A stretch of DNA of 64,000 bases from Gracilaria domingensis (taxonomy: Eukaryota > Rhodophyta > Florideophyceae > Gracilariales > Gracilariaceae): positions 1 to 64,000 of the forward strand of contig VCMS01000014.1 of NCBI GenBank assembly GCA_022539475.1, given 5' to 3'. Positions 735 through 53,871 of the stretch are shown piece after piece. A model generated the notes under the pieces. That model had not been told where the DNA came from. It worked only from the letters and a program-made list of their open reading frames with translations, and did not search any database. Position 1 is the stretch's first letter. The number at the start of each line of letters is the position of its first letter. The position numbers and the translations under genes are program-made.

Positions 735-812
735 TTTCCCCCTCCTTAGGGTGCGAGACGACCACGCGAGCGATTTCGTTTTCCTTTCTGGAGTGTATTT
801 AAGCACGTCGGC

Positions 813-2897
813 ATGAGGTCTCCAATCCGGCCTCCCCGGTCTCTTCTAACGGCGACTCCGGTCCACCCCTCTCCACGCGTACTGCGTAGTGTCTCCTCGA
901 TACCTCGGCGCGCTCTCCCTTCTCTCTCGCTTCCAGCGCTTTCGTCTCTTCCTCGCGCGCTTCCGCGATGCCGAACCCGAATCAGGGTAGCAACCAACCG
1001 CCTGGCGGGTCTCAGAACCAATACGTTGGTGGTTTCGCTGGGCCTTCACACCCTTCCTCCTCTGGAGTGCCTCTCTCACAGCCGTCTTCCGCTGGCATTC
1101 CCGTTTCCGCAACCGGTCAATCCGGGATTTCACACGGCTCCTCTTCCCCAGACGGGTGGTCAACTTCCCGCCCCCGGCGTCTGTACCGCAGTGGAACTGG
1201 ATCGCTCCTGCTGTTCCGGTCCAACCGGTAGTCAACCCGTATGCGGGCGCGTGGGCGTCGTATGACGAACTCGACAACGTCGACCCTCGCAGCAATCCCA
1301 CACCGTTCTTACGGGCTCCGTGGTTTCATCCGCAAGGCGTGACCAATCGTTCCCTTCGTCGGGCGTATGCGATGGCAGTGGTCCACTCTCCCAAGGAGGC
1401 GTGGCACGTCTGGATGACGGTGACGTTCGATGGCATTACGGAATACGTGCCTACAAACGCGCTCGGTCCACCAATTCGTGTCAGTCGCACAAACTCGCCG
1501 AGCGGCCATGGTTGCGTAGCAGCACTGGCGCATTTTCGCGCACGAAACTCAGAGCGCCGATTCCGGCGAACTTCGCGTTTTCGACGTGGCCTTCCTTCCG
1601 AACACTCGGCGAAATTCCAAATATGGAGAGAATCTTGCCGCCGGCTCGGTCGGGGTTGTGGTGGGACGCGTTACTAGAACGTTCGCCTCCGTTCTACCAG
1701 GATCTCCTGTGATGGACCCGTCCGCTTGCTGCGTGCAGAACTTCGATATCTCCCAACCTCCCCACACGGCCCGGTACCGGGTCCTAACTACGCTTCAACC
1801 CCAATGATCCGTCCCGAAACGACGTGCCATGCTCCCTGGGGTTACGCTCATCCGTATCAAACACGGAGCAAACCGGATTCGTCCGCGCCACATGCGTGGG
1901 AGATATGTTCCTCTCCCCTTTGTGTGGGCGTCCGTGGAGGTCTGCCGTGGCTGTTACGTGGAACTCCCCCCCTGTCTCACGTATGTGGGTAGTAGGCTCG
2001 TGACAACCCGTTTACGGGATGGTGGAGCGTTGTCCTCAACGGAGTGGGCGGCGCGAACAGCGGTGTATCTTCTCAACGAGGTATATGACCAGTAATCGAC
2101 TGTGGTTCATTCCCCCGCGCTTGCGGCAACTCATCCGAGCCTTGGATCTCACTATCCCGCTTGGCGGTAATGGAAACTTCTCGAAGTCATGTGCCTCTTG
2201 CGAGTGATTGATGGAGTCGACTGGAACCAGGTTCCTCGTTCGCAGAGGCGCGCGACGAAAGGTCGATCTTGCCAATTGACCGGTCTCGGGTCGCAGTCCC
2301 CACTGGTCGGTGATTACATCTAACTACGACCCCTGGACACGGGGTGCCGATTACAAACGCCGAGGCGGAACTCTTCGGAATGCCGAGCGAGTCATCCCTC
2401 CGGGGCACCCAACGGGTTTCATCATCATGACTGATGAGTTCTTTCACCCTGTCGGGGATCAAAACATCATGGTTGATGACGCTCCCGATGACGGTGACGA
2501 CTATGGCGATGACAACTTCGCAGCAGCTCCGGTGGAGGGGGCAGTACCTGCTTCAGCAGTGCCAGGTCCCAAGCGGGTGTCGACGCGATCTTCTCGACTC
2601 CGGTGAATGTTCCTCTGCGCCTCTAGCGGCTCCTGGGCCCGTAGTGGCTCCTGTTCCTACGCCTGTGGCGGTTCCGACTCCAGCGGAGAATGTTGCTTCG
2701 CCTGCGATGGCGGCGTCGGCTACGCCGAACGAAGCCGCGAACGCGGGACTTTACCGGACGAAGCACGGGCTGCCGTGATAGCTCAATTCCTCAGCGAGGC
2801 TGGCATCTCCGACTCGACATCTGGCGACGTCTCGCAGATGCGCGACGCGCTAATTGCGCAGCTTGCGAACGCTGGAGACCAGCAGGAATCCGAGTAA
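813..2897 (+). pseudogene. Broken copy of the retrotransposon's opposite-strand ORF (copy B)
   Basis: This is the counterpart of the intact 681-codon frame at 27555-29600 of copy C, transcribed against gag-pol. The start ATG (813), the alternative ATG at 968 and the final TAA (2895-2897) are preserved. In between the frame is cut by repeated one- and two-base indels, so no product of more than about 170 residues is possible. A TATTTAAG box lies just upstream, as in copy C. Product function is not recognised. The sequence could be real decay or low base quality. Confidence 0.75.
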
Positions 2898-16207: not shown

Positions 16208-18129
16208 TCAAAGCATCTCTATAGCTTCAGAAGTAGGGACGAAATCAGTTCCCCAATTTTCCAGCTCATCCAATTCTAGTTCACAATCTCCAACATCAAC
16301 CATGTCACCTGATATGTTCTCGTCGTCCAGAAAGCGTGAATACATCTGCCCATTCGTCCCTGCTTCTTTCAAATTTGACTTCATCGCTTCCTTTGCAGCT
16401 CCAAATCGCAAATCCGTATACTCAACCTCCTCATGTTTCTTCTCCACCCGCCCTCGAGCATCGAACAAAGATTGGTTTAACGCACAAAAAATCAGTTTAG
16501 ACACTTTTCCCTGCTGTAGTCGGTTTCGAGATGGAGTTCTAAGTCTGCCCTGCAGACTAAAACTGCGCTCCACACTCGAAGATGACGGACTAGAACATAA
16601 AATCCGTAGCGCAAATTCACGCAGAAGGGAGGTCTTAGGGTATTCAACCCAGTAGTAGACAGGCGTTTGATTGTACATCATTAGTGAATGCCTCGCGATA
16701 GGATCTTGCATCTGTGAACGCCAGCTCATACGAACAGAAAGGAACTCCTGACAAATACGGTCCACTGCTCCATGTTCACCCCCTTCACTAGGGACCTTTT
16801 CGCTTGCAGGATAGCAATCGGATTTAACAAATGAAAGCACATGCTCTACAAGGTGCGGACGAAACGCTCCCAGGTTTTCCCCCAGGCTCCTTATATCCAA
16901 CATGTATGCCACATGATGTAGCGGTGTCACCAACGCGACTTTTTGTCCCTCCCCCCTCATACGTCGTTCAAAAATCGTGATGATCTCTTCACTTCTCTGC
17001 GTCGTGTAAAAGGGAGTAATGGGAAGTTGCTTAAGCTTGTTCAAAAGTTGCACCGTGGCCGGATATACCTCAGATAAAAGAGAGGACTCGTCGTCAAATA
17101 TTCTCAAGTACTGACGAACAAGGCGGAAAATGTGGTATACGTTCAAAAGCTTGTCGTATAAGGCCTCGTTCCGAATGGTCGCTTTAAACAGGTCGCGTTT
17201 GTCTCTGTTTCGGCCACTGTACAAATTGGAATGGAAGTCAGTGCACCCTATAAGTTCGTTTAGAACTGCCTTACATCTCAGGAAGGACGCAATCATGCTC
17301 TCTGACGAAGCAAAACGAGTTTGTGCCATCTTACAGGGAAGAATGGCAGAAGGGGGCAGACGCACTCTTCCATATTGGTCCACTTCCCGTGAGGATCGGG
17401 TCCGAGGAGTTCGTAAATTGAACCGCGTTTTCAGCTCCTTGAATCTATGATAGAGCTTGGGGTGGTTCCTGAGATCACCAATCACACTAGAAACCATCAC
17501 AAGAATCTCGTTAATCCACGCCAGCTTACCCATATCCTGCATTAATAGATTTGCCAAGTGCGTCTGGTCCTGGCAAGACAACATGAAGTTGTGCCTCTGC
17601 AATATATTCTGCTTGGCTTTAACACAGGAGCTCGTGTTATCACTGACTACAGCGCAGATTCGCTGTATGTCCCCAAATTCCAACATAGTATCCTCCACAA
17701 CCTTAGCATAAAAGGCTGAATCACAGGTCATAGATCCAGTAAAGATCGATTTCAAGAAGAACGTTTTCCTAACCTTCTCCATTCCAGTAAGAGATAATAA
17801 AATGTTGACCACTCCTTCATTATTCACATCCGTCCACCCATCAAAAATTAATGTACCGTAAGAATCTTTCAAAGATGCCGAGATAGACTGCTTCACGCGC
17901 GCGTGCATAGTCTCGTAGTAAATACTGATATTCTTGGAGCCCATGCGTTGTGGATCAGGTAGTTGCTTGCTTAACTCATAATTAGCAATTTTGATGATCT
18001 GATAGAATTCATCGGAGCCCTCCGTACGACTTAGTAGAGAAAACGGGAGCATATGCTTGACAAAGAAACGTGTAACGAGGTTGTTGAACATCGATCGGCG
18101 ATCGCGAGAGTCAAAACTTAAGTCGCTTC
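16208..18129 (-). pseudogene. hAT transposase, C-terminal part (split by copy C)
   Basis: Catalytic and dimerisation part of a hAT-family transposase. Visible features: the FDGWTD block with the first catalytic Asp, VVSDN with the second, a Cys/His-rich CQDQTH segment, and near the C-terminus a typical hATC dimerisation motif (S.SSVERSFS...R.R), which supplies the catalytic Glu. The frame is open up to the exact 5-bp target duplication of the LTR element at 18125-18129. The N-terminal part is at 30496-30996. Without the retrotransposon and one copy of the 5 bp the frames on both sides are in phase, so the gene was probably intact when hit. Confidence 0.85.
18125..18129. repeat. Target-site duplication GCTTC, left copy
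   Basis: GCTTC precedes the 5' LTR here and follows the 3' LTR at 30496-30500. Five base pairs is the usual length for Ty3/gypsy integrases and fixes the limits of copy C. Confidence 0.9.
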
Positions 18130-18945
18130 TGTAGTGCAACGCGATTGCGGGACTCCTTCGCTGATGCGATTCATAACATGCACGGCGATGCCGGGAGGTG
18201 GTGGCACACAGTATGAGTAACTGGTAAGATCAGCCCATTCTTGGGTATACTTAATATTAGAATTAGTGTTATGAGGCGCACGGCTTAGCCGGTGGGTCAC
18301 ACACGTGTGGGAAGTTTGCACCCATTAGTTGGGGTATTTTAGATGTTTATTCTAGATATTTTCGCTACACCGCTTGACAGTGGGTTGGCACTCTACACTA
18401 CTTAGTAGGTTGAGCTGCACCCATTGTCGGGGAAGTAAACGAACCAACCGAGTGTTCGGCTCTGATGTTTCACCCTTGGTGACCGATATCCTCCTCCCGG
18501 AGAGTCGGCACCTTGTGCAGGGCTCATCATCCGCCTCGCGGCATCATTAACACCACTACCGCTTTCGCGTGTTTACTTTGTGTGTGTTTTCTTTATTTCT
18601 GTCCCTGTTATACAGGTAGCACTACTTGGTGTACCGGTGCATACCGTTCGTGGCTCGACACACTCGCGTGGGCTATTACCGCTCTCGCGTGTCATCGCCA
18701 CACTCGTGGGTACCGCGTGCTACGCACGTGACGCTACTGCCGACTTGTGTCGTGTGTTCTCTACCGCTGGACGCTTCTTCTTCGCCGCTTCGCTCCCTCC
18801 ATTACTTGGGAAGGGTCGACCCCGGTCTTACACCCGGCATTGCCGTGTCGTACCTGTGGGAGCGCTCTACTGCTGTGCTCGCCTCTTGAGAGAGGGTCTG
18901 AACCGCCTTTGCGTGTCTTTCCCCATCGCTGGGTTTTGCACAACA
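18130..18945 (+). repeat. 5' LTR of chromovirus copy C (816 bp)
   Basis: Runs TGTAGTGCAA...TTTTGCACAACA. It is the same length as the 3' LTR. By eye I found a single mismatch between them (A at 18226, G at 29776). Candidate promoter elements are the AT-rich GTATACTTAATATT near 18256 and a cluster of CGCGTG motifs between about 18565 and 18720. No AATAAA signal is seen. Confidence 0.93.
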
Positions 18946-19385
18946 ATTGGTCTCCCGACTTAGAAGTCGCGTTGATCCAGCAAGTTGGTTTTCTGATCAA
19001 TTTCCGGTTTGCCGGTTCGTATCTGGTCGTGGAGATACACTACACAGTTTCTACTGGAAGGCTTTGCCGACAGACGTCGTGTTGGTACTGCTTTCCTCAT
19101 TTTGGGTTGTTGTTTGGACACGGTTTACTACCGGTGGCACTACCTATTTCCGTAGTGTGTGATTCCCGTCGGTACGGTTGTTGTCACCCCGTTTGGGTTG
19201 TCTACTGTTCCCAGCAATCTGGTCGAATCAGCCCCAATTCCGTATACGGCTGTTCCCGTTGGTACGGTTGGTTCGTCCGATTTGTCGGTTATCGTCACTC
19301 GCGTGAGGACGCTACACTCATTCGAGGTTAATTTGTTGTTTTGCTTTCCTGTTCCCAGTTTTCTGGTTGTATCTCGTCGTGGACG
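18946..19385 (+). other. Primer-binding site and untranslated leader, copy C
   Basis: Two bases after the LTR comes TGGTCTCCCGACTTAGAAG (from 18948), a plausible primer-binding site; I could not match it to a known tRNA 3' end. CGACTTAGAAGTCG (18956-18969) is a perfect inverted repeat overlapping it. CCCGTYGGTACGGTTG occurs twice, at 19165 and 19255. There is no convincing coding frame. Confidence 0.6.
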
Positions 19386-21470
19386 ATGGCGTCGGGCAAG
19401 CGCTCGAGCCCTACGAAGTCTCGCTCCGTTGGCTCTGGCTTGCCCCCACGTCTGCGGTCTGTTCCTGAACCCCTACAGGGTGATGGAAGGAAACCCGGAA
19501 ACCGGAAACAGCCTGACAAGTCGTCTGACGCCCCAGTGGCTGGGCCCTCATCTGCTCCTTTGGAGGGTCTTATACCCGCTGTCGCGGCGAAGGATGCGCT
19601 CGTAAACGAGTTGGAGACTCAAGTTCGTGTGCTTGAGGCTCAGACTGCTGTCATGAGGAGTTCTCATGAAGCACTCGTTTCCGAGGTCGACACACTTCGT
19701 TTGAAGGTTGACGCAGCCCTCAACGGAGGTGTATCAGATGATCTACGTATTTTACGGAAGGATGTTAATGCCCTCTTGGAGGTTCTTCAAGGATATCCCG
19801 GTTTCACCGAGGAGGTTAACACGAAGTTCATTCGGATCCTTGGCCGTCTTGAGACGTTAGAGGCCACCATCCGTGAGGATGACGGCCCTGCTGCCGCCTC
19901 TGCGGGAGTGTCTCGTGGTACACGTGACCGGAAGTCCGGGAAGAGTCGCTCTAAGAAGAGGAATGTCGACGAGTATGACTCGGAATCGTCACAGTCTTCT
20001 GGTATTTCAAACCGCTCGGCGGGTTCTTTATCATCGAGCTCGTCAAGTGACGGTGAACGTCGCGCTCGTTCTACGCGTTCGCGGAGTTCTACGTCCACCT
20101 ATGGTGTTGTTGGTACCCGGAAACGGGGGCGAAAGCACTCAGGTTTGAGGGAACTGGAGCCGACGAATCCCTTGTTCAAAAGGTTGTTATCTTACCGGTA
20201 TTACCGTTTGGAAGATTCAAGTCTGAACCGGACGCCCCGTGGCACGGGTAAGGTGAAGGACTGCATCAAACGCATGTCCTTAACCTTTCGCAACCAGTTG
20301 TTCACTGGGGAGGATCCCATTCTGGTGCTTGACTTTCTTTCACGCTTTGTAGCGGAAGCTGACATCCTCGGCATGAGTGAGGGGCAAGCTTATGTTGCCT
20401 TACCGTATTTTCTACGTGGACTCGCTGAAGATCAGTATAACTCTGTAAGAGGTTCATCTCGCGCCTCTGAAGGAGGGGTCACCTGCTGGCCCGAAGCAGT
20501 GCAGTATTTGTTGCGCTCGTATGCGACAAATACCTCTATCGAGGAAGCAATCACCGCGTTGCGGGAGACGAAACAACGCCCGAAGGAGTCGGAAACCGAG
20601 TACTCGGTACGCCTGAATAAGGCATTCCACCGTTGTGGCAATGTTTACTCCTCAAACGAGCGCTGCACGCTGTTTATCAACGGATTGAATCCGGCTATTC
20701 GCACTCTGGTTGCCCAGCGACGGGAAGACCGGAAGAAGACTACCTATCTGGAGTTAGTGCAGTACGCGAAGGCGGAGGGAGACGCCTTGCGCGCACGCAC
20801 CGGATACCGGGTTTCAACCAAGGCGTTGCACCTCGAAGGAGGGTCGTCATCGGCTTCACTGCTACCGCAGGACTTTTCTGGCCACGATGTGGATAACTTA
20901 CATCTCGCACAGGTGGACCTGGATTCTATTCCGACTACGGAGTTGCCTTCTACTTCAGAAGCCTCGTCGAAGACGGAAGATGCGCTGCTTTACGCAGACC
21001 GTCCACGCGTTCGCGGTCCTCAAGTACCCTATTCAGGGAGTCGTCACCAGCGACCTGGTTGGGTAGACCCGCGAACGGTGAAGTTCCAAGACCCACGGAG
21101 TTCCGGAAGACCACCCCTGATCTGTTTCACGTGTTACAACCACGGGCATGCAGCTCCGAACTGCAACCTCTCGATGAGGGAAATGCCCACGGTTGTGGCG
21201 AATTTTGAAGCGCTGACCCCCGCCGAACAGGCGTCAGTGCCGGTAACCGCATATCTGCGTGCGAAGGCTGAGTACCCCTGTAGGGTGTCTGCTGCAGAAT
21301 TGGCTGCGTTACTGCACTCTGGTTCGACCCAGGTCAATGTTTCACCGGCTCAAGCCGTGGCGGCAACCGCTGTTGCGGGTAGTTCTGTCGCTGTTCCACA
21401 GGAATCTGTGAAGATGCCTGCTGCACAGGACGCCGTTCCCGTTAGAACGGATGGAACTCAGTTAAACTGA
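19386..21470 (+). CDS. gag: Gag polyprotein, copy C
   Basis: A 694-residue structural protein forming the virus-like particle. The ATG at 19386 is preferred over an upstream in-frame TTG. Layout: basic Ser/Pro-rich start, a predicted coiled coil (about residues 80-165), a Ser/Arg-rich stretch (about 180-255), a capsid-type helical domain (about 275-500), and a CCHC zinc knuckle at 580-593 (C-x2-C-x4-H-x4-C) for RNA packaging. The stop TGA at 21468-21470 follows the slippery heptamer at 21461. The pol frame is already open from 21446, so the two overlap in the -1 register. Confidence 0.88.
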   Translation: MASGKRSSPTKSRSVGSGLPPRLRSVPEPLQGDGRKPGNRKQPDKSSDAPVAGPSSAPLEGLIPAVAAKDALVNELETQVRVLEAQTAVMRSSHEALVSEVDTLRLKVDAALNGGVSDDLRILRKDVNALLEVLQGYPGFTEEVNTKFIRILGRLETLEATIREDDGPAAASAGVSRGTRDRKSGKSRSKKRNVDEYDSESSQSSGISNRSAGSLSSSSSSDGERRARSTRSRSSTSTYGVVGTRKRGRKHSGLRELEPTNPLFKRLLSYRYYRLEDSSLNRTPRGTGKVKDCIKRMSLTFRNQLFTGEDPILVLDFLSRFVAEADILGMSEGQAYVALPYFLRGLAEDQYNSVRGSSRASEGGVTCWPEAVQYLLRSYATNTSIEEAITALRETKQRPKESETEYSVRLNKAFHRCGNVYSSNERCTLFINGLNPAIRTLVAQRREDRKKTTYLELVQYAKAEGDALRARTGYRVSTKALHLEGGSSSASLLPQDFSGHDVDNLHLAQVDLDSIPTTELPSTSEASSKTEDALLYADRPRVRGPQVPYSGSRHQRPGWVDPRTVKFQDPRSSGRPPLICFTCYNHGHAAPNCNLSMREMPTVVANFEALTPAEQASVPVTAYLRAKAEYPCRVSAAELAALLHSGSTQVNVSPAQAVAATAVAGSSVAVPQESVKMPAAQDAVPVRTDGTQLN
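21461..21467 (+). promoter_or_regulatory. Candidate -1 ribosomal frameshift site GTTAAAC
   Basis: The gag frame reads TTA AAC TGA, preceded by G, so G_TTA_AAC is an X_XXY_YYZ-like heptamer touching the gag stop codon. A short stem TCTCC/GGAGA begins 12 bases downstream (21480-21492), and a 7-bp stem with loop TCAC lies at 21520-21537. Pol continues in exactly the -1 frame. The same heptamer works in some nidoviruses (established); its use here is inferred. Confidence 0.65.
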
Positions 21471-24400
21471 GTACGGGAGTCTCCAATGGAGAGGCGCCCG
21501 AGTCGAGGTCTACGGCGCCCGAGGCGTCACCGCCTCGCTCCCAGGTCAAAATCCTTTCGAGGAAACAGACCGTCCTAGACGTGGACTCTACCACCATCGG
21601 TGTGTTACGTCGCCCGTGGATACGGTTCAGGAACAACCGGATCCCGGATCGAGTCATGGTGCTGGCCAAGCGAAACTACAAGATATTTGCTGACCTTGGC
21701 CTATCCACCCAGTATATGGTGCGTCATCTCTCTGTCTTGGATACAGGTGCTGGCCCCAACTTCATTGTTGAGTCGTTACTACCGCCGGAAGTCCGTTGTC
21801 GAATCCGCTCTGGACCCGTCATGGACGTGGCAGATGCCAACAATAACCCGTTACAAACGGCTGGAATGGTTTCACTGATTGTCAGGATTGGTAACTGCAT
21901 CGAGCAGGTAGAATTCATCGTCTGCAAGACGCTCGCTGCCCCTGTCATTCTAGGGTGTGACTTCTGCGACAGATATGTCGAAGCCATACGACCGCGTGCG
22001 CGTGAAGTGGAAATGGAAGATGGTTCGGTTGTACCGATTGTTCGTCGCTCATTACGCCGAGCGTCAGCTAAGCTGGTACCACTACCCGCTCCTCTACAGG
22101 ATTCCTCACCTCCGAAGGAGTCGCCGAAGCTCCGCGTAGCGCGTGCAATTTCTATTCCGCCAGAATCCCAGGTTTGGGTTGATGTTACTGCCGCACCGCG
22201 TGGTTTGCGGGTTGTTCAACCATTGAACTCGTTATACGAGAAGTATCAGGTCGCGTTGGCGAACGGAGTTGTTCAAATCAACAGCGAACACCCCTTTCGG
22301 GTTATGTTGGCCAACTTTGGCAAGAAGCCCCAGTATCTGGTGAAGAACCAAGTAATTGGTACTGTCTTACCGCACCCTACGGCGCTTATCCCTACAAAGG
22401 TGACTGCCGCCGAGATGCTCGGGCTTGCTGAAGAACGCACTGGTTTGCTTCACCCTAAGGAGGGGGAGGAAGAATCGTCGCGCTCGTCTGCGTCGGACCC
22501 GTCCCAGACGGTTGAACACCCGTCCCAGACGGTTGAACACACGAATGACTCGGAAGCTAGGACCGTTCCTACGAGTTATGACAAGATTGACCCTATCAAG
22601 GAGTTAGAAGAATTGAATCTCGGTCATGTACCGGTTTCACACCGTGAGAAGTTGCGCAACATGTTGCGAGAGTTTACACCAATGTGGGATGGTTCCCTCG
22701 GAGAGGTTTCAACTACGGAACACCGGATTGACCTCCTGCCGGAGACCAAGCCGATTGCTCAGCACCCTTACAGGGCAGGCCCGAAAGCACGGGAAGAGGA
22801 AGAGTTTCAGATCAACAAAATGCTCCGCGCTGGCGTGATAGAACCGGCTCAGTCGCCGTGGGCATCTCCAGTTGTACTGGCTCCGAAACCCGACGGGTCC
22901 TGGCGCTTTTGTATCGACTATCGTCGCTTGAACGATGTCACCGTCAAAGACGTGTACCCCATACCTCGTATGGACGAGTATATCGACTCGCTTGGCGATG
23001 CTACTGTGTTCTCCACTTTGGATGCAAACTGGGGTTACTGGCAAGTACCAGTTAGACCGGAAGACCGTGACAAGACCGCGCTTACCTGTCATTCAGGACT
23101 ATACCGCTTTAAGCGTATGCCGTTCGGGTTAACGAACGCCCCCGCTACGTTTCAGCGTGCTCTGGACATTTTGTTAGCTCGCTTCAAATGGCGGAGTTGC
23201 TTGGTATACCTCGATGACATCATCGTGTTTTCCAACAGTTTGGACGATCACCTCGAACATGTTCGGGAGATAATGACCGCTTTGCGGGATGCTGGAATTA
23301 CTCTCAAATTGAGGAAGTGTGAGTTTTTCACTCACTCAGTGAAGTATCTGGGCCATGTCATACGTCCAGGACGGTTACTGATCGAGGAAGCTCGCGTGAA
23401 GTCCCTCAAAGAGGCGAAGCACCCCACTACACAGACAGAGCTACGCTCCTTTCTGGGGCTATGCAACGTTTATAGACGGTTCATTTCTCGCTTCGCGAAG
23501 ATCGCGGGACCGCTCAACGAACTCCTGAAGAAGGGACAACCGCCCAAATTGGGACCACTTACCCCCACGCAAGTGGAGGCCTTCAACTCTCTTAAAGAGG
23601 CTGTTACCACGGCACCCGTGTTAGCGTTACCAAAGAACGGGTTGCCGTACACCGTGGATACGGATTCGAGCGATTACCAAATTGGCTGCGCTCTCTTTCA
23701 GACTACACCCGAAGGGGAACGCAAACCAATTGGCTATTGGTCTCGTACACTCAACGTGCACGAGCGCAATTACTCGGTATCCGAGAAGGAGTGTCTCGCC
23801 ATGGTATGGGCTTTGCAGACTCTACGACCATATCTTATGGGTGTGCACTTTACCGTCAATACGGATCATTCCGCCTTGCGTTGGTTAATGTCAGTCACGG
23901 AGCCTTCCGGACGCTTAATGCGTTGGCGTCTTCGGCTTGCCGAGTTTGACTACGAGGTCACCTATAAGAAGGGTTGTTTAAACGCGCAAGCGGATGCTCT
24001 TTCACGTCTAGGAACTGAAGGTGAAGCTTTACCCCTCGATGACGAGGATGAAGATATCCCCTGTTTCCTCATGGAGGAGGGTGATGAAGACTACGACATC
24101 GTGTCGGACGACATCTGTGATGATTTGCTCGTCGCAGACGGTGAAGACCCGGAATCCGGTACATTCGTCCCCATTACTCCAGAAGAGCTGGTGCGGGAAC
24201 AGCAATCTGACCCGTTCTGTACGAGGATACGCTCCCAAATTAATGGTGGTGCTAACATCCCGTTCGGGGTCAACACACAAGGTTACCTCGTCAGAGTGGT
24301 TCGTTCTACCCCACAGATTGTGGTTCCTCACTCCTTACAAACAAGGGTATTGCATCTCTCGCATCACTCGCGGATGGCTTCCCATCCGGGTGCTAAGCGG

Positions 24401-27022
24401 TTATACACGACACTGCGTCGGGATTTCTACTGGCCCGCGTTAGCGTTGGACTGCTACACCACCGTGAAGGCGTGTACACATTGTGCTCGAGAGCGAGTTA
24501 AACAGCGTCGCCATGCGAAGAAACTAACACTTTTCCCCGCAAGGGCGCCGTTGGAGTTTATTGCCATCGATATACTCGGCGAGTTCTTGCGTACTTCCCG
24601 AGGAAATCGGTTCTTACTCGTTATTACGGATAGATTCAGTAAGCTAGTCCGGACAGTTCCGTTGAAGTCGATTACAGCACGCAGTGTTGCAGAGGCATTC
24701 GTTCGCCATTGGGTTATGGTCTACGGTCCCCCGGTCAATCTCCTCTCAGATAATGGTCCGCAGTTTACTGCACGTTTCTTCCAGGATGTCTGTCGGATAC
24801 TCGACGTGAAGAATCTCTTCACGACGACGTATCATCCCCAATGCAATGGGCAAGTCGAACGGTTTAACCGGACAATGCTCTCCGCGTTGCGGGCTTATAC
24901 AGTTGAACACCCGAAAACTTGGGATCTCTACACGGATACCGTGACGTATGCGTATAATACGCAAGTTCACAGAGTAACTGGTTTATCGCCCTTTGAGCTC
25001 GTGCTCTCACGGACACCACCGCCAGTTGCGGTTGAACCATCAGCAAAGCTGGATACGTCACCGTCAATACGGGATCACTACTTGCAATGGAAGCAGTGGT
25101 TATCCGCAATGGTACCTGTCGCCAGGTCGTCAATGGCGAAAGCACAACACGCTTACAAGCGGAACCTTGATGCCCGGGTACGGAGACCACTACCGCCACT
25201 GAAAGTGGGAAACCTCGCCTTTGTCAGGAAGGAGTACTACAACCCTGAAAAGGAGCGGCGCCACAAGCTTTCACCCATCGCTGATGGTCCGTACCGCGTT
25301 GTCAGCGTGAACAAGGACACAGCCGTACTGGAAGTTGGTGACGCTCATGAGCGTTTCTCCCGCGATCGCGTGGTAAGAGGTCCAACCGTTCACACGGAAG
25401 TACTTTCGGACACACAGCAGGAAGCTGGACAGACAGAGAACCGAGGAACCTCGTCGCAGAACACTACACCCACTGTGGGGCTCCGTCACCCAACACGGGG
25501 TCTCGCAGATGTACCGATTATATCGTCGCAAGCCGAGGTATCGGAACATACACCGCTGGTGAAATCGCGTTTCACAGCGTCTGTTACACCGTCAACTGAC
25601 GTGATGACTGCTCCCCGTAACGCTCCACCTAAGGAGGGGGAGGGGAATTCACGCGTTGTCGCGGAGAGTGAGTCACCGGTGTCGCTACCGTCGCAGCACC
25701 GTGATTCACGGGAAAGTAATGAAGCAGAGGCAGAGTCGCCTCAGGACACCGTCGAAGACGTAGTTGCTACGGACACCACTGTCAGTGGGAAGGATCACCC
25801 GCTGTCGCGTGTTGAAGTCGCGAAGGACGCGCCGCAGTCGGCCGCTGTCGCGCAGAACTCTGCGGAGGATACACAACCTTCCACGAAGGATCGCGACCTT
25901 CAGGAAGGACACCGCACGCAACGAACGGACTCAAGGTTGTCCCAGGATACTGGTATTGCTCACCCATCTGGGGAATTGTCACAGGAACACGCGCCCATCG
26001 TCGCACGGACGCAGGACGCGGAGCATGCTCTCGTTCGCGAAGTTTCCACGGCAAGGCCGGAAGTTGATCAAGAACACCCGACTTCTCGGCAGAGCAAGGC
26101 TACAGCGAAGCTGGATACTGTATCACGGAGTATTCCGGACGCGCAGTCGCCGCACTCCGCCGCTGACGACCGCCGCAAACCGCCTTCGCAGGCGCGCTGT
26201 AGGGTAGTCACGGCAGATCCCGGTATCGTTGACACTGCAGAGCAGGAAGAAGAGAAGACGCTCGCTGAAGCGAAGATCAAGCACCCCGGTTCGGGTAATG
26301 GTAGTGTACCGTTGCACCCAGCTTTGGGGAAGTCGCAAGTCGCACGTCATGACGTTTCGATAAGTCATGACGGCGCACCGCTCGCTGGAGATACGGATTA
26401 CAGCCCTGATTTAGGGAAAACGCACACTGCATCTGCAGGAGCGCTTGCGCACCACAAATCTTGGGGTGCGCTGCGCGCGCCACACAATGGGCCAATCACA
26501 GCTCGTGGCAGTGCCACCACCGCGAAACGTCGCGTGTCGTCACGTGAACCGGCACGTGCCGTGGTGAACAACCCGCCTCCGCGTCTGCCTTCACCGTCAA
26601 GACGGGAACTACCGCGTGAACTAGCCGTTCGCGGACCCGCCGAAGCGGCGAAGCTGCTTGAGAAGACCCGGATTCCGGAAGCGACCACTCAGCGGAGGAC
26701 ACACTTACCGCCGAAGGCGTCAGGAGAAACTCACAGCACCGCTGGTGACTATGTAACGGCACCGCCGCGACACGCTGACGACCCTTCGCAGGAAGAGCTC
26801 GAGCGGGGAGTTTACTCGAAAGAGTTCGTTGTCGACCACATAGTGGGGCACAGTTGGAACCCGAAGGGGTATGTTCAGTACCAGGTACGCTGGTATGGCT
26901 ATCCGCCGTCGCGGGACTCGGACGAACCCGTGGAGCACCTACCCCGATCGAAGATCGTGCAGTACCACCGTCGTACTAACACGGCGTTGCCGGCTAATCT
27001 ACATCAAGCGATGGTCGGTTAA
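21467..27022 (+). CDS. pol: Pol polyprotein with chromodomain, copy C
   Basis: Open frame entered by -1 frameshifting; there is no ATG before 21656. Residues counted from the GTG at 21581: aspartic protease D54-T-G-A; reverse transcriptase with catalytic D481 and Y543-L-D-D546; RNase H starting near D693; integrase zinc finger HHCC (about 925-975) and catalytic D997, D1057, E1093 (DD35E spacing); GPY/F module 1236-1238; then roughly 460 residues rich in Ser, Thr, Glu, Asp and His; and a chromodomain at about 1745-1800 with a likely aromatic cage F/W/Y. The usual TWEP is SDEP here. The chromodomain presumably targets insertion to marked chromatin. At more than 1810 residues it is much longer than a typical chromovirus pol because of the linker. 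Confidence 0.92.
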   Translation: MSTGVSNGEAPESRSTAPEASPPRSQVKILSRKQTVLDVDSTTIGVLRRPWIRFRNNRIPDRVMVLAKRNYKIFADLGLSTQYMVRHLSVLDTGAGPNFIVESLLPPEVRCRIRSGPVMDVADANNNPLQTAGMVSLIVRIGNCIEQVEFIVCKTLAAPVILGCDFCDRYVEAIRPRAREVEMEDGSVVPIVRRSLRRASAKLVPLPAPLQDSSPPKESPKLRVARAISIPPESQVWVDVTAAPRGLRVVQPLNSLYEKYQVALANGVVQINSEHPFRVMLANFGKKPQYLVKNQVIGTVLPHPTALIPTKVTAAEMLGLAEERTGLLHPKEGEEESSRSSASDPSQTVEHPSQTVEHTNDSEARTVPTSYDKIDPIKELEELNLGHVPVSHREKLRNMLREFTPMWDGSLGEVSTTEHRIDLLPETKPIAQHPYRAGPKAREEEEFQINKMLRAGVIEPAQSPWASPVVLAPKPDGSWRFCIDYRRLNDVTVKDVYPIPRMDEYIDSLGDATVFSTLDANWGYWQVPVRPEDRDKTALTCHSGLYRFKRMPFGLTNAPATFQRALDILLARFKWRSCLVYLDDIIVFSNSLDDHLEHVREIMTALRDAGITLKLRKCEFFTHSVKYLGHVIRPGRLLIEEARVKSLKEAKHPTTQTELRSFLGLCNVYRRFISRFAKIAGPLNELLKKGQPPKLGPLTPTQVEAFNSLKEAVTTAPVLALPKNGLPYTVDTDSSDYQIGCALFQTTPEGERKPIGYWSRTLNVHERNYSVSEKECLAMVWALQTLRPYLMGVHFTVNTDHSALRWLMSVTEPSGRLMRWRLRLAEFDYEVTYKKGCLNAQADALSRLGTEGEALPLDDEDEDIPCFLMEEGDEDYDIVSDDICDDLLVADGEDPESGTFVPITPEELVREQQSDPFCTRIRSQINGGANIPFGVNTQGYLVRVVRSTPQIVVPHSLQTRVLHLSHHSRMASHPGAKRLYTTLRRDFYWPALALDCYTTVKACTHCARERVKQRRHAKKLTLFPARAPLEFIAIDILGEFLRTSRGNRFLLVITDRFSKLVRTVPLKSITARSVAEAFVRHWVMVYGPPVNLLSDNGPQFTARFFQDVCRILDVKNLFTTTYHPQCNGQVERFNRTMLSALRAYTVEHPKTWDLYTDTVTYAYNTQVHRVTGLSPFELVLSRTPPPVAVEPSAKLDTSPSIRDHYLQWKQWLSAMVPVARSSMAKAQHAYKRNLDARVRRPLPPLKVGNLAFVRKEYYNPEKERRHKLSPIADGPYRVVSVNKDTAVLEVGDAHERFSRDRVVRGPTVHTEVLSDTQQEAGQTENRGTSSQNTTPTVGLRHPTRGLADVPIISSQAEVSEHTPLVKSRFTASVTPSTDVMTAPRNAPPKEGEGNSRVVAESESPVSLPSQHRDSRESNEAEAESPQDTVEDVVATDTTVSGKDHPLSRVEVAKDAPQSAAVAQNSAEDTQPSTKDRDLQEGHRTQRTDSRLSQDTGIAHPSGELSQEHAPIVARTQDAEHALVREVSTARPEVDQEHPTSRQSKATAKLDTVSRSIPDAQSPHSAADDRRKPPSQARCRVVTADPGIVDTAEQEEEKTLAEAKIKHPGSGNGSVPLHPALGKSQVARHDVSISHDGAPLAGDTDYSPDLGKTHTASAGALAHHKSWGALRAPHNGPITARGSATTAKRRVSSREPARAVVNNPPPRLPSPSRRELPRELAVRGPAEAAKLLEKTRIPEATTQRRTHLPPKASGETHSTAGDYVTAPPRHADDPSQEELERGVYSKEFVVDHIVGHSWNPKGYVQYQVRWYGYPPSRDSDEPVEHLPRSKIVQYHRRTNTALPANLHQAMVG
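22451..22467 (+). promoter_or_regulatory. Internal polypurine-tract copy 1
   Basis: CACCCTAAGGAGGGGGA is identical over 17 bases to the tract that precedes the 3' LTR (29661-29677). Inside pol it encodes a Lys/Glu/Gly stretch between protease and RT. It could act as a central plus-strand primer. It is also present in copy B near 7984-8001 on the other strand. Confidence 0.5.
22498..22540 (+). repeat. 21-bp tandem duplication in pol
   Basis: CCGTCCCAGACGGTTGAACAC occurs twice in tandem and encodes a repeated PSQTVEH unit in the protease-RT spacer. It is present in both copies B and C, so it predates their divergence. Confidence 0.8.
25627..25641 (+). promoter_or_regulatory. Internal polypurine-tract copy 2
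   Basis: CCTAAGGAGGGGGA followed by GGGG repeats 14 bases of the 3' polypurine tract. It lies in the long integrase-chromodomain linker. The equivalent in copy B is near 4806-4822 (complement). Confidence 0.45.
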
Positions 27023-27199
27023 CACACGTCGCTGGAGACGGAAGCTTATCGCGTACCGCGCACGAACGGTTCTACGAACCACAACACTCAATCGAGGAAC
27101 GCTGCGACAACCTCCAGAGGAGTACTGTACCGCTACTCGCGTGGTGAGGAGACACTCTATTGAGAGGACAGTTGAAGTTCGAATAGTAACGCCCTCAGG

Positions 27200-27435
27200 A
27201 AGAGGAGAAGTTAAGAAGCACTCGCAAGAGGAAGAAGACTCTATGAAGAGGAAAAGGAAGCTCAGAAGAGGAAGAAGCACTCGCAAGAGGAAGAAGACTC
27301 TATGAAGAGGAAAAGGAAGCTCAGAAGAGAAGAAGAACTCGTAAGAGGAAGAAGCACTCGTAAGAGGAAGATCACCCCGGAAGGGAGAAGTTAAGAAGTA
27401 TACACCTTGGAAGAAGGGAAGAAGTCTTGAGATCA
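27200..27435 (+). repeat. Purine-rich tandem repeat between pol and the opposite-strand ORF
   Basis: GAAGAGGAAAAGGAAGCTCAGAAG-type units; the block containing GCACTCGCAAGAGG recurs at a 59-bp period (27218 and 27277), with shorter partial units after. The strand is almost entirely A and G, while the opposite strand is pyrimidine-rich. The remainder of 27023-27554 shows no gene. The position between two convergent reading frames suggests a transcript-end or plus-strand-priming role, but that is speculation. Confidence 0.8.
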
Positions 27436-27554
27436 AGAGAAGTTCACAGTTTACTGGTCAATGTTACTATGTTGTGGCTCGCTAGTCGAGCACACAACGG
27501 CCAAGTTATTGGGTATCAGCTAGGAAGGACTCCCTAGAGGAGAAGCTGCACGAG

Positions 27555-29600
27555 TTACTCCGATTCCTGCTGGTCTCCAGCGTTCGCAAGCTGCGCAATT
27601 AGCGCGTCGCGCATCTGCGAGACGTCGCCAGATGTCGAGTCGGAGATACCAGCCTCGCTGAGGAATTGAGCTATCACGGCAGCCCGTGCTTCGTCGGTAA
27701 GTCCCGCGTTCGCGGCTTCGTTCGGCGTAGCCGACGCCGCCATCGCAGGCGAAGCAACATCCTCCGCTGGAGTCGGAACCGCCACAGGCGTAGGAACAGG
27801 AGCCACTACGGGCCCAGGAGCCGCTAGAGGCGCAGAGGGAACATTCACCGGAGTCGAGAAGATCGCGTCGACACCCGCTTGGGGACCTGGCACTGCTGAA
27901 GCAGGTACTGCCCCCTCCACCGGAGCTGCTGCGAAGTTGTCATCGCCATAGTCGTCACCGTCATCGGGAGCGTCATCAACCATGATGTTTTGATCCCCGA
28001 CAGGGTGAAAGAACTCATCAGTCATGATGAAACCCGTTGGGTGCCCCGGAGGGATGACTCGCTCGGCATTCCGAAGAAGTTCCGCCTCGGCGTTGGTAAT
28101 CGGCACCCGTGTCCAGGGGTCGTAATAGATGTAATCACCCGACAGTGGGGACCTGCGACCCGGAGACCGATCAATAGCGGAATCGCCTTCGTCCCGCGCG
28201 CTCTGCGAAAGAGGAACTTGACTCCAGTCAACGCCATCGATCACTCGCAAGAGGCACATGACTTCCGAGAAGTTTCCATTACCGCCAAGCGGGATAGTGA
28301 GATCCAAGGCTCGGATGAGTTGCCGCAAGCGCGGGGGAATGAACCACAGTCGATACTGGTCATATACCTCGTTGAGGAGATACACCGCTGTTCGCGCCGC
28401 CCACTCCGTGAGGACAACGCTCCACCATCCCGTAAACGGGTTTGTCACGAGCCTACTACCCACATACGTGAGACAGGGGGGGAGTTCCACGTAACAGCCA
28501 CGGCAGACCTCCACGGACGCCCACACAAAGGGGAGAGGAACATATCTCCCACGCATGTGGCGCGGACGAATCCGGTTTGACTCCGTGTTTTGATACGGGA
28601 TGAGGTAACCCCATCGGGAGCGGGCACGTCGTTCGGGACGGATCATTGTTTGAAGGTAGTTGGACCGCGGTACGCGTGGGAGATATCGAAATTCTGCACG
28701 CAGAAGCGGACGGGTCCAGCACAGGAGATCCTGGTGAACGGGGACGTTCTGGTAACGCTCCACCACACCGGCGAGCCGGGCAAGATTCTCTCCATATTGG
28801 ATTTCGCCGAGTGTTCGGAAGAAGGCCACGTCGAAACGGAAGTTCGCCGGAATCGGGCGCTCTGAGTACGTGCGAAACATGCGCATGTGCGCTACGCGAA
28901 CCATGGCCGCTCGGGCGGAGTTGTGCGACTGACTACGATGGTGGACGAGCGCGTTGGTAGGCACGGTAATCCGGTAATGCCAGTCGAACGTCACCGTCAT
29001 CCAGACGTGCACGCCTCCTGGGAGGTGACCACTGCCATCGGCATACGCCTCGACGAGGGAACGATTGGTCACGCCTTGCGGATGAAACCACGGAGCCCGT
29101 AAGAACGGTGTGGGATTGCTGCGAGGGTCGACGTTGTCGAGTTCGTCATACGACGCCCACGCGCCCGCATACGGGTTGACTACCGGTTGGACCGGAACAG
29201 CAGGAGCGATCCAGTTCCACTGCGGTACAGACGCCGGGGGCGGAAGTTGACCACCCGTCTGGGGAAGAGGAGCCGTGTGAAATCCCGGATTGACCGGTTG
29301 CGGAAACGGAACGCCAGCGGAAGACGGCTGTGAGAGAGGCACTCCAGAGGAGGAAGGGTGTGAAGGCCCAGCGAAACCACCAACGTATTGGTTCTGAGAC
29401 CCGCCAGGCGGTTGGTTGCTACCCTGATTCGGGTTCGGCATCGCGGGAAGCGCGCGAGGAAGAGACGAAAGCGCTGGAAGCGAGAGAGAAGGGAGAGCGC
29501 GCCGAGGTATCGGAGGAGACACTACCGCAGTACGCGTGGAGAGGGGTGGACCGGAGTCGCCGTTAGAAGAGACCGGGGAGGCCGGATTGGAGACCGTCAT
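27555..29600 (-). CDS. Opposite-strand ORF of the chromovirus (unknown product)
   Basis: A 681-residue frame running against gag-pol, from the ATG at 29600 to the stop at 27555. The frame stays open further upstream but without ATG; a second plausible start is the ATG at 29441, which would follow the TATTTAA box (29611-29617) at a proper distance. The protein has a Ser/Pro/Gly/Gln-rich N-terminal 130 residues, a central Trp/Tyr/Arg-rich part that looks folded (about 140-480), an acidic patch (DDAPDDGDDYGDD), a Pro/Ala/Val-rich stretch and a helical Ala-rich C-terminus. I do not recognise a family. Plant LTR elements with antisense ORFs are known. Openness over 2 kb and the broken but recognisable twin in copy B argue it is a real gene. 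Confidence 0.7.
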   Translation of the reverse strand: MTVSNPASPVSSNGDSGPPLSTRTAVVSPPIPRRALPSLSLPALSSLPRALPAMPNPNQGSNQPPGGSQNQYVGGFAGPSHPSSSGVPLSQPSSAGVPFPQPVNPGFHTAPLPQTGGQLPPPASVPQWNWIAPAVPVQPVVNPYAGAWASYDELDNVDPRSNPTPFLRAPWFHPQGVTNRSLVEAYADGSGHLPGGVHVWMTVTFDWHYRITVPTNALVHHRSQSHNSARAAMVRVAHMRMFRTYSERPIPANFRFDVAFFRTLGEIQYGENLARLAGVVERYQNVPVHQDLLCWTRPLLRAEFRYLPRVPRSNYLQTMIRPERRARSRWGYLIPYQNTESNRIRPRHMRGRYVPLPFVWASVEVCRGCYVELPPCLTYVGSRLVTNPFTGWWSVVLTEWAARTAVYLLNEVYDQYRLWFIPPRLRQLIRALDLTIPLGGNGNFSEVMCLLRVIDGVDWSQVPLSQSARDEGDSAIDRSPGRRSPLSGDYIYYDPWTRVPITNAEAELLRNAERVIPPGHPTGFIMTDEFFHPVGDQNIMVDDAPDDGDDYGDDNFAAAPVEGAVPASAVPGPQAGVDAIFSTPVNVPSAPLAAPGPVVAPVPTPVAVPTPAEDVASPAMAASATPNEAANAGLTDEARAAVIAQFLSEAGISDSTSGDVSQMRDALIAQLANAGDQQESE

Positions 29601-29608
29601 GCCGACGT

Positions 29609-29620
29609 GCTTAAATACAC
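29609..29620 (-). promoter_or_regulatory. TATA-like box for the opposite-strand ORF
   Basis: On the minus strand GTGTATTTAAGC lies about 170 bases before the ATG at 29441 and just before the ATG at 29600. It is conserved in copy B near 792-803. If used, transcription would start past the 29600 ATG and favour the 29441 start. Confidence 0.35.
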
Positions 29621-29666
29621 TCCAGAGGAGGAAAACGAAATCGCTCGCGTGGTCGTCTCGCACCCT

Positions 29667-29679
29667 AAGGAGGGGGAAA
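29667..29679 (+). promoter_or_regulatory. 3' polypurine tract of copy C
   Basis: AAGGAGGGGGAAA ends directly at the first base of the 3' LTR, the standard position of the plus-strand primer. Two near-identical copies occur inside pol. Confidence 0.85.
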
Positions 29680-30495
29680 TGTAGTGCAACGCGATTGCGG
29701 GACTCCTTCGCTGATGCGATTCATAACATGCACGGCGATGCCGGGAGGTGGTGGCACACAGTATGAGTAACTGGTGAGATCAGCCCATTCTTGGGTATAC
29801 TTAATATTAGAATTAGTGTTATGAGGCGCACGGCTTAGCCGGTGGGTCACACACGTGTGGGAAGTTTGCACCCATTAGTTGGGGTATTTTAGATGTTTAT
29901 TCTAGATATTTTCGCTACACCGCTTGACAGTGGGTTGGCACTCTACACTACTTAGTAGGTTGAGCTGCACCCATTGTCGGGGAAGTAAACGAACCAACCG
30001 AGTGTTCGGCTCTGATGTTTCACCCTTGGTGACCGATATCCTCCTCCCGGAGAGTCGGCACCTTGTGCAGGGCTCATCATCCGCCTCGCGGCATCATTAA
30101 CACCACTACCGCTTTCGCGTGTTTACTTTGTGTGTGTTTTCTTTATTTCTGTCCCTGTTATACAGGTAGCACTACTTGGTGTACCGGTGCATACCGTTCG
30201 TGGCTCGACACACTCGCGTGGGCTATTACCGCTCTCGCGTGTCATCGCCACACTCGTGGGTACCGCGTGCTACGCACGTGACGCTACTGCCGACTTGTGT
30301 CGTGTGTTCTCTACCGCTGGACGCTTCTTCTTCGCCGCTTCGCTCCCTCCATTACTTGGGAAGGGTCGACCCCGGTCTTACACCCGGCATTGCCGTGTCG
30401 TACCTGTGGGAGCGCTCTACTGCTGTGCTCGCCTCTTGAGAGAGGGTCTGAACCGCCTTTGCGTGTCTTTCCCCATCGCTGGGTTTTGCACAACA
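29680..30495 (+). repeat. 3' LTR of chromovirus copy C (816 bp)
   Basis: Same limits (TGTAGTGCAA...CACAACA) and length as the 5' LTR, with one difference noticed. It is followed by the target duplication GCTTC and then by hAT transposase coding sequence. Confidence 0.93.
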
Positions 30496-30996
30496 GCTTC
30501 CTGAGCACTCGCTTTTTGCGTTCGAAGAGGCCATCAGCTTCGACTTTCTACGCGAAGGAGCAACTGATTTCTGAACCTTCGACTTCGTCCTCTTTGACGT
30601 AGCAGTATGTCGTCGCTTTTTTGATACAACTGGCGTAATCGGATGCCCAAATAAATCGAAACCGCCTGAACTCACATTGTTTCGATAATATGACTCAAGA
30701 CGCTTGTCTTGAAGCAAACGGTAAAGAAGTTCGGAGGAGGTTTTCTTACACTTGACAGCATGCTCACCAAGTCGTGAAGCATTAACAATTAGAGCCTTGC
30801 TATGCCATAAACATGCTTTGCATGTCGTGTAGAACTTTGTGGGTGCTCCTGCCTCGTCTTCAACCGGAAAACTGCGTGACTCAAAAAGCTCGTCTACCCA
30901 CCACTTCTTAGGCTTTGTCCTTTGCGGCCCGGTAGAAGCAGAACGAGTATCAGTGCGGTTTGTAGAAGTATGTGCGAAAGATATATTCTCTGACAT
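30496..30996 (-). pseudogene. hAT transposase, N-terminal BED-finger part (split by copy C)
   Basis: Starts at the ATG at 30996 and is cut at 30496 by the LTR element. It holds a BED-type zinc finger (Trp-Val-Asp...C-x2-C...H-x4-C), which binds transposon ends, and then a basic Lys/Arg/Ser-rich stretch. It is in phase with the catalytic part at 16208-18129 if the insertion is ignored. Terminal inverted repeats of the original hAT element were not found; the plus-strand CCCTG at 31569-31573 would be a possible right end but has no partner near 16014-16207. Confidence 0.8.
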
Positions 30997-52566: not shown

Positions 52567-53871
52567 TTACTCTCCGTGCTCGTCATCCGCCCCGAGCTTG
52601 CTCTCGACCAGCTCTCTATACTGCTTAAGCAACATCTCCTCTCTGCGTTTTTTCTCATCCCGGTCAAGGTCGTTGAGGGCAGCTCGCTCCTCGGCTGAAT
52701 ACACTTGATTTTCCTTCCGTATTCTCACTGCCTCCATCCTTCGATTTCGACTACCGCTCATGACATATCCCTGCTTCTCGAAAGACGAAATCTGTTCCCC
52801 AGTTAGACCGATCTCCCCCCTTCTCGGAATGCGCACCCCTTCTTGAATGAAGGCGGCCATCTTCGAACCTTCTCCCTTGAGTAAAGCCTTTCCGAAATCC
52901 CTCTTTTCCTTTGTCGGTGGTGCAGGTCCTAGCGGTGCATCATCTATGTCTTCATCACTGTCTCGTTTTCCTTTCAGCGCCTTTGGTTGGCTTTGGGATT
53001 TCTCTTCATCATCTTTCTTATCTTCGGGTTCTTGCTGCTGTTGTTGTTTAGCGCGTTCTGCGCGACGACGACGTTTCTCTTCTTTTCGTTTTCTCTTCCG
53101 TTCACGCTTTGCCCGCAAGTCAGCTCCGACATCGAAACGATTTTCTAGACGTGCTGGTGGAGACGGTGATCGCTCCCACACAGTAACGTGCACAGCCTCT
53201 TCCCGCTGAGCTACTCGACGAGCCCAATACCCGCGCGCACCGCCGCCATATTCACGCTGCGGCGCACGAGCTAGAGGAGAGCGCCGGCGAATCTGAAGCG
53301 ATTGGCGTTGACCATAGCGAGGAGGCGTAGCAGAGCGACTGCGACGTACAGGTGAAGGTGCCGGATGTCGACGATGCGGAGATGGTGATCGACGCCCCCG
53401 CCCTGGGGAGAGTGAAGATCGTTGGCGTACTGGCGAAAAGCCTCTAGTCCTGCGTGCAGGTGAGCGAGTTCTATCGCGGAACACAGGTGAACGAGGTCTA
53501 TTTCGGCGTGCAGGTGAACGCGTTCTGTCTCGACGTGCTGGTGATCGCGCTGGGTCTAGCCGAGCAGGTGAACGCCTTCTCTCTCTGTATACAGGCGATC
53601 GCGTTCGTTCTTCTCGTGCGGGTGCAGGCGATCGCGTTCTAGCCCGGTGTACGGGGGACCATGTTCTGTCCCGCCGTGCAGATGAACGTGTTCCATTTCG
53701 GCGCGCACGCTTCGGCGGCGGCGGCGTTAAGCTGGGCGAGCGCCTGCGAGCGCGTTGGTATCGTCTGCGGTAATAGTCGTCATCCGGCGGCGGCGTCGGC
53801 GACGCCGAACGCTCGCGCAAAGACCAGGAGGGCGAATTTTGCCTCCAACGTTCATTGCGTTCTCGCGGCAT
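52567..53871 (-). CDS. NKAP: NKAP family SR-rich splicing/chromatin protein
   Basis: 434 residues from the ATG at 53871. The first 220 residues are built of RSPARR.RTRSP-like repeats (RS domain). Then come basic KRERKRKRKEEKRRRR helices and a Gln run, then the C-terminal SynMuv-type domain: RIPRRGEIGLT.EQI..FE..GYVMSGSR.RRMEAVR.RKENQVYSAEE. That block identifies NKAP/NKAPL, a nuclear-speckle protein that binds RNA and the spliceosome and acts with Notch and NF-kB co-repressors in animals. In an alga the splicing role is the safer inference. The RS repeats are visible in DNA as degenerate 33-36 bp tandem units (about 53440-53690). Confidence 0.88.
   Translation of the reverse strand: MPRERNERWRQNSPSWSLRERSASPTPPPDDDYYRRRYQRARRRSPSLTPPPPKRARRNGTRSSARRDRTWSPVHRARTRSPAPAREERTRSPVYRERRRSPARLDPARSPARRDRTRSPARRNRPRSPVFRDRTRSPARRTRGFSPVRQRSSLSPGRGRRSPSPHRRHPAPSPVRRSRSATPPRYGQRQSLQIRRRSPLARAPQREYGGGARGYWARRVAQREEAVHVTVWERSPSPPARLENRFDVGADLRAKRERKRKRKEEKRRRRAERAKQQQQQEPEDKKDDEEKSQSQPKALKGKRDSDEDIDDAPLGPAPPTKEKRDFGKALLKGEGSKMAAFIQEGVRIPRRGEIGLTGEQISSFEKQGYVMSGSRNRRMEAVRIRKENQVYSAEERAALNDLDRDEKKRREEMLLKQYRELVESKLGADDEHGE

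Follow-up and report, generated by a model that had tools for sequence, protein, structure and literature searches.

The question raised by this locus is whether a long open reading frame running antisense to gag and pol in a red algal retrotransposon is a gene and, if it is, what its product might do for the element. The window, by which we mean the whole stretch of 64,000 nucleotides analysed from a contig of Gracilaria domingensis, contains a single LTR retrotransposon family twice, the copies being inverted relative to each other. The copy that carries the frame, termed copy C, has the following parts:

18130-30495, plus strand: copy C, a Ty3/gypsy element with paired LTRs flanked by a target-site duplication
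18125..18129, no strand: left target-site duplication, GCTTC, 5 bases identical to the right copy
18130..18945, plus strand: 5' LTR, 816 bp, TG...CA, delimited by comparison with the 3' LTR
19341..21470, plus strand: gag-like ORF, 709 aa, named from its size and position
21581..27022, plus strand: pol ORF with reverse transcriptase (RT), RNase H, integrase (H2C2 and rve) and a C-terminal chromodomain, identified with Pfam
27213..27329, plus strand: tandem pair of purine-rich units, 58 bases long and spaced at 59 bases, separating pol from the antisense ORF as part of the spacer
29667..29679, plus strand: polypurine tract (PPT) directly abutting the 3' LTR
29680..30495, plus strand: 3' LTR, 816 bp, putative source of an antisense transcript, with a promoter role suggested by position
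30496..30500, no strand: right target-site duplication, GCTTC

The window element is a Ty3/gypsy chromovirus, given the gypsy order of its pol domains in Pfam (RVT_1, RT_RNaseH, H2C2, rve, Chromo), its chromodomain (27.0 bits against a cut-off of 25.1), TG..CA LTRs, PPT and target-site duplication; the chromodomain assignment covers this element, and the further families described below were compared by their RT region alone. The gag-like ORF gave no Pfam match above the cut-off. As the 5' and 3' LTRs differ by a single mismatch in 816 bp, copy C is probably a young insertion. It apparently interrupts a hAT transposase gene (16208-18139 and 30496-30996): a minus-strand ORF with DUF659 and hAT-dimerisation matches in Pfam adjoins the 5' LTR, and a second minus-strand ORF past the 3' LTR, which has no Pfam match, is possibly the zinc-finger part of the same gene.

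A sequence-only reading of this DNA had pointed to an antisense frame of about 700 codons lying past the stop of pol (27022) and short of the 3' LTR (29680), and the frame is indeed there. It runs from 29663 to 27555 on the minus strand, with 702 codons from a GTG at 29663 and 721 codons from stop to stop. The longest stop-free run observed in 27023-29679 is 707 codons; in 1000 dinucleotide-preserving shuffles of the same interval such runs averaged 182 codons and never exceeded 428, and the length of the frame is therefore beyond chance. The frame and the region ahead of it comprise:

27555..29600, minus strand: antisense accessory ORF, 681 aa from the ATG, placed by selection profile and alignment
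29601..29663, minus strand: in-frame 5' extension from the GTG, probably untranslated, judging by the dN/dS of codons 1-21
29611..29617, minus strand: TATTTAA, a TATA-like box kept in 30/30 family-1 copies

Two candidate starts had been put forward, of which the ATG at 29600 is most likely the one used, rather than the GTG at 29663, because the selection profile changes there: among the copies of this element family (family 1), dN/dS is 1.66 over codons 1-21 versus 0.44 over codons 22-73. An ATG stands at the place equivalent to 29600 in 29 of 30 family-1 copies, and in the thirtieth (L020) it is visible too, displaced by the match boundary. The 5' extension reaches the complement of the PPT, which precedes the ORF in all loci looked at from each of four families. 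In family 2, a stretch clearly resembling the annotated N-terminus of a Gracilariopsis chorda protein (P0003) starts at the frame's first ATG, the family-2 rows in this comparison beginning at that ATG by choice; for family 4 and P0002 the N-terminal likeness is weak. The TATA-like box is real as a conserved motif in family 1. As evidence for a promoter it is weak, because it lies only 10 nt ahead of the ATG and was not seen in any of seven upstream stretches from families 2-4; it is too near the ATG for a transcript start upstream of the box. A sense-strand frame at 27990-28580 (196 codons), open in 22/22 equal-length copies, was also considered as a gene and rejected, as it mirrors the codons of the antisense ORF and this reverse frame has a dN/dS of 1.04.

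Whether the frame is maintained as a coding sequence could be judged from its other copies in the genome. Searching the assembly with the window protein gave 71 matches, which merge to at least 63 places (family 1). At 41 of the 63 listed the match covers 674 residues or more, and 28 of these 41 near-full-length places are free of stops; of all 63, 25 contain at least one stop and a further 10 are stop-free but partial. The best 30 of the 63 (L009-L038) were fetched with their flanks for the analysis of dN/dS, and 27 of the 30 are stop-free. An LTR terminus adjoins the ORF in 30/30 of the fetched loci and the C-terminal part of pol lies antisense in the downstream flank of the ORF in 29/30; at the remaining locus (L016), which contains 474 N, the match to the window starts only at 27182.

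Counted from the ATG, the pooled pN/pS of the 30 copies is 0.263 (codon bootstrap 95% CI 0.206-0.331), a set whose choice as the best matches to the window protein can lower dN somewhat. Downstream of codon 73, the ratio falls to 0.23 over codons 74-185 and to 0.17 over the core (codons 186-550), rises to 0.43 over codons 551-655 and is 0.22 over codons 656-702. Over gap-free columns the ORF frame has a dN/dS of 0.28 and the other five frames have values of 1.12, 1.81, 1.04, 0.42 and 1.89, the 0.42 belonging to a reverse frame that has its third positions in common with the ORF. When pairs of copies are sorted by rising distance (435 pairs less 11 whose dS is 0, leaving 424), the ratio is 0.67 for dS up to 0.02 and then 0.33, 0.23, 0.29 and 0.24, a trend that fits selection during replication before insertion and decay after it. 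The last 316 codons of pol (26072-27019, chromodomain included) have a dN/dS of 0.59 versus 0.26 for the ORF in the same 28 copies, so that the C-terminus of pol is under weaker constraint than the antisense ORF. Thus, the antisense frame is under purifying selection. The sequence-only reading had assigned the frame to the chromovirus family and had proposed to judge it by dN/dS across copies and by stops in full-length copies; with a ratio of 0.26 (95% CI 0.21-0.33), well away from 1, and with most near-full-length copies open, that assignment is borne out, and we regard it as nearly certain that the frame is a selected, protein-coding accessory gene.

The family assignment had been drawn from a broken twin of the frame in the second copy of the window:

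about 751..2897, plus strand: twin of the ORF, its frame broken, in the second copy, which is inverted (93.9% by blastn across 2177 aligned columns)

The twin is present as described, though its damage may in part be artificial. Its differences from copy C are mainly scattered single-base gaps, and the gag-pol of the twin is mostly gap-free relative to copy C over 7.9 kb. Since the stretch (C14:1-3700) lies at the end of the contig where its numbering starts, assembly error may account for part of the damage and is as likely a cause as decay. Elsewhere in the genome, contig C144 has three RT matches of equal score (L001-L003) on one strand, exactly 11590 bases apart and with one internal TGA each, a pattern suggestive of an element repeated in tandem.

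The gene extends beyond one element family and beyond this alga. Three protein searches, with the window protein and with A1 and A2 (in each, the 7993 candidates richest in common words were scored), returned an identical set of four outside relatives, P0001 to P0004, two of which are named proteins of G. chorda; the G. chorda proteins are 37-43% identical to the window protein. Used as queries against the G. domingensis genome, P0003 led to family 2 (at least 77 places), P0004 to family 3 (at least 49 places, taken from 69 rows of which the other 20 are families 1 and 2) and P0002 to family 4 (at least 42 places). Orientation was scored for ORF places of families 1-3 that lie no more than 9 kb from an RT or pol among the matches listed (150 rows for RT and 64 for pol), which gave 89 pairs from 189 ORF places; places without one (28/63, 46/77 and 26/49 in families 1-3, 100/189 together) count neither way. 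The ORF is antisense to and downstream of pol in 35/35 scored pairs of family 1, 29/31 of family 2 and 22/23 of family 3. In the three deviating pairs out of 89 (two in family 2 and one in family 3), the nearest RT may belong to a neighbouring element. Family 4 was examined at one locus, where pol (L057) has the plus orientation and the ORF (L053) the minus orientation. Conversely, for 29 of the 64 family-1 pol places among the matches listed, no antisense ORF is listed closer than 9 kb, which does not prove that the ORF is absent there, because one of these places is the inverted twin of the window, which carries the broken ORF.

An alignment of the core of 14 sequences has 58 invariant positions. 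Over 354 core columns, P0003 shares 78% identity with family 2, and P0001 and P0002 share 67-69% with family 4. Core identity is 46-52% for the relatives in the three further families. Among all four families the core is 44-52% identical (354 shared columns), whereas RT identity between them is 77-83% (319 columns), and the antisense protein thus diverges much faster than RT; a fixed set of core residues is retained despite this. From these comparisons, the families appear to predate the split of this alga from Gracilariopsis, unless they have moved horizontally.

The 681-residue protein has a Pro-rich N-terminus, an Arg-rich basic core (pI 9.8, charge about +14), an acidic stretch, an Ala/Pro-rich acidic linker or tail and a short conserved C-terminal segment; the stretch and tail that follow the core are acidic. 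No transmembrane segment was detected, the maximum 19-residue Kyte-Doolittle mean being 1.22. A profile search for a known family, as had been recommended, yielded nothing credible for the window protein and 14 family members in Pfam, PHROGs and PDB sequences. For example, the best PHROG match has an E-value of 0.088 and occurs in 2/14 members, the best Pfam matches are two families, each found in a single member (E-values 0.28 and 0.45), and the best PDB matches are Bcl-2 chains (E 0.05-0.08) that align with residues 569-628 in the low-complexity tail. No relative was found in phage records, and among viral contigs 29 stretches fit a peptide pattern, none of which was confirmed as a relative. 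Two AlphaFold models are unusable (mean pLDDT 34 and 37.5) and show helices at low confidence. The protein has no similarity to the gag of the element by BLASTP beyond a low-complexity stretch and none by HMM alignment of the family profile to the single gag sequence; a duplicated gag was accordingly rejected, and the accessory capsid that had been suggested for the product found no backing. The protein family is apparently new, being unlike anything in the databases searched, and no description of the gene was found in the literature on red algal retrotransposons and chromovirus antisense ORFs, as covered by titles and the openings of abstracts, a scope outside which most subscription journals fall.

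The sequence-only reading mentioned antisense ORFs of some plant gypsy elements and knew of no such protein in an algal chromovirus; the protein family does appear to be new, and the arrangement has more precedent than that reading implied. Plant and fungal LTR retrotransposons are already known to carry a class of antisense additional ORFs located between pol and 3' LTR (aORF-3R), with maize Grande gene23, rice RIRE2, PvRetro13 and Botrytis Boty among the examples in the available part of the review (PMC7264820). According to the same part, these ORFs occur in most copies and mostly lack clear similarity to other proteins, antisense transcription of its own has been reported for Grande, and no function is known for any of the antisense accessory genes covered there (PMC7264820). 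The algal frame has the location and antisense orientation of aORF-3R in most scored copies of families 1-3, and its reading frame is conserved as theirs are; it differs in belonging to a red alga and to a chromodomain element and in coding for a protein with little or no lysine, which has no Pfam match and may be unrelated to the Grande, RIRE2, PvRetro13 and Boty proteins. Antisense ORFs of the Retand lineage, a non-chromovirus lineage of flowering plants, likewise lie between pol and the 3' LTR, are found lineage-wide, carry a Transposase_28/TRP28 domain (PF04195) and have been proposed to encode a nucleic-acid-binding regulator, as far as the accessible text of that study goes (PMC11963269). 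Place and orientation are thus common to both, whereas the domain of the Retand proteins has no match in the algal window protein or in the 14 members at E <= 1, and TRP28 was rejected as its identity; a search of the genome for PF04195 was empty, and so were equivalent searches of control genomes. Among retroviruses, the antisense gene of HTLV has its promoter within the 3' LTR (PMC7264820, in the part available), and deltaretrovirus antisense proteins are nuclear regulators (PMC11963269, likewise). The likeness of the algal ORF to deltaretroviral HBZ and APH-2 is that of an antisense gene, known here from sequence alone. HBZ, which we take to be one of these nuclear regulators, and APH-2 are smaller proteins than the algal one. 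In short, the arrangement of the algal gene is known and its protein family apparently new.

The composition of the protein is unusual in one further respect. It has 0 Lys and 50 Arg, whereas K/(K+R) is 0.32 and 0.34 in the gag and pol of the same element (Fisher p 1.4e-8) and 0.20-0.51 in nine other ORFs of the window, with eight of these at 0.33-0.51. The ninth, at 52570-54066 (minus strand), has 26 Lys versus 104 Arg. Lysine is absent from 25 of the 30 family-1 copies, the five others having one or two. The proteins examined from families 2 and 4 have two each, those from family 3 have nine and ten, and P0001 to P0004 have 2, 1, 5 and 15, respectively. The two G. chorda proteins resemble families 2 and 4 in having a K/(K+R) of 0.02-0.08, as against 0.17-0.19 in family 3 and P0004, which are only mildly depleted; the absence of lysine is therefore not a strict rule. 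From the frame's own positional composition 10.5 Lys would be expected, so that their absence from the window protein appears to exceed what base composition would give. The codons AAA and AAG occur 0 times in the coding frame of the window ORF versus 11 and 5 times in the two other forward frames. The corresponding counts are 2 versus 14 and 2 in family 2 and 9 versus 12 and 2 in family 3, and in these two families the coding frame is not the poorest in lysine codons.

We propose that an antisense transcript would begin in or near the 3' LTR, as the position of the frame suggests, that the accessory protein would be translated from this transcript and that it may act on the element's own cycle, in transcription, RNA handling or a nuclear stage. 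The protein would then be a nucleic-acid- or chromatin-associated regulator, as has been proposed for Grande gene23, the Retand TRP28 proteins and the retroviral antisense proteins. Such a role is suggested by the basic core, followed by the acidic stretch, the Ala/Pro-rich linker and the conserved C-terminal segment, and by the analogous genes; the putative binding to DNA or RNA is read from composition rather than from a recognisable domain or a usable fold. We hold the regulatory, nucleic-acid-binding role tentatively, as a little short of an even call, and the proposal as a whole, comprising the accessory gene, a transcript from the 3' LTR region and a nucleic-acid- or chromatin-associated regulator, strikes us as evenly poised. 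A role at the RNA level may coexist with it, because the antisense transcript would pair with the genomic RNA of the element. The further view that this RNA is itself the functional product, controlling the element through dsRNA and silencing while the frame is incidental, draws on its complementarity to the genomic RNA in the 3' region and on the dsRNA or silencing role discussed for antisense RNA of plant elements (PMC7264820, in the part available). It does not explain selection at the protein level, however, given a dN/dS of 0.28 in the ORF frame versus 1.0-1.9 in four of the five others and a protein homology that spans families and genera; as the main account it is scarcely credible, and an additional role is the most it could claim.

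The main rival to a regulator of the element's own cycle, though an unlikely one, is an antagonist of the host, whose chief task would be to blunt RNA silencing, chromatin silencing or ubiquitin-dependent turnover. Depletion of lysine would then avoid ubiquitylation, lysine deserts being reported to prevent it where it is unwanted (PMC10169902, in the part available), and the divergence of the core, so much faster than that of RT, would reflect an arms race. The lack of lysine next to gag, pol and the other ORFs of the window, the low ratios that the two G. chorda proteins share with families 2 and 4 and the empty count of AAA and AAG in the window frame all favour this reading; against it, base composition explains part of the depletion, family 3 and P0004 share it only mildly, another forward frame is as poor or poorer in lysine codons in families 2 and 3, and no domain ties the protein to any defence. 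A fuller version, in which an undescribed family, antisense in red algal Ty3/gypsy elements since before the Gracilariopsis split, fast-evolving and poor in or free of lysine, shields the element from silencing or ubiquitin turnover in the manner of HBZ, seems to us slightly more doubtful still. A structural protein, forming an accessory part of the virus-like particle or pre-integration complex, would accord with the conserved core, Pro-rich flanks and conserved C-terminal segment, with the low-confidence helices of the AlphaFold models and with retention alongside gag and pol through replication, but the lack of likeness to gag and an antisense expression independent of that of gag, as would hardly be expected of a component of the particle, make this improbable. 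That the gene was recently captured from the host, as had also been raised, would suit the lack of any visible gag or pol ancestry; yet no donor was noticed among the best-scoring genome places listed, and four diverged families and a second genus mean that any capture was old, so that we consider a recent one very unlikely. An envelope-like protein, comparable to some sense-oriented third ORFs, would fit the position between pol and the 3' LTR and was rejected for its antisense orientation and the absence of a hydrophobic segment, and can hardly be right.

The arrangement found in this alga has precedents, then, in plant, fungal and retroviral elements, and the preferred reading, of an accessory gene whose product may regulate the element, places the algal gene beside them. 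It adds a very different host, strong selection, four diverged families, invariant positions and an odd composition, by which the function of antisense genes becomes testable in a further lineage. The algal case also suggests that the antisense arrangement arose more than once.
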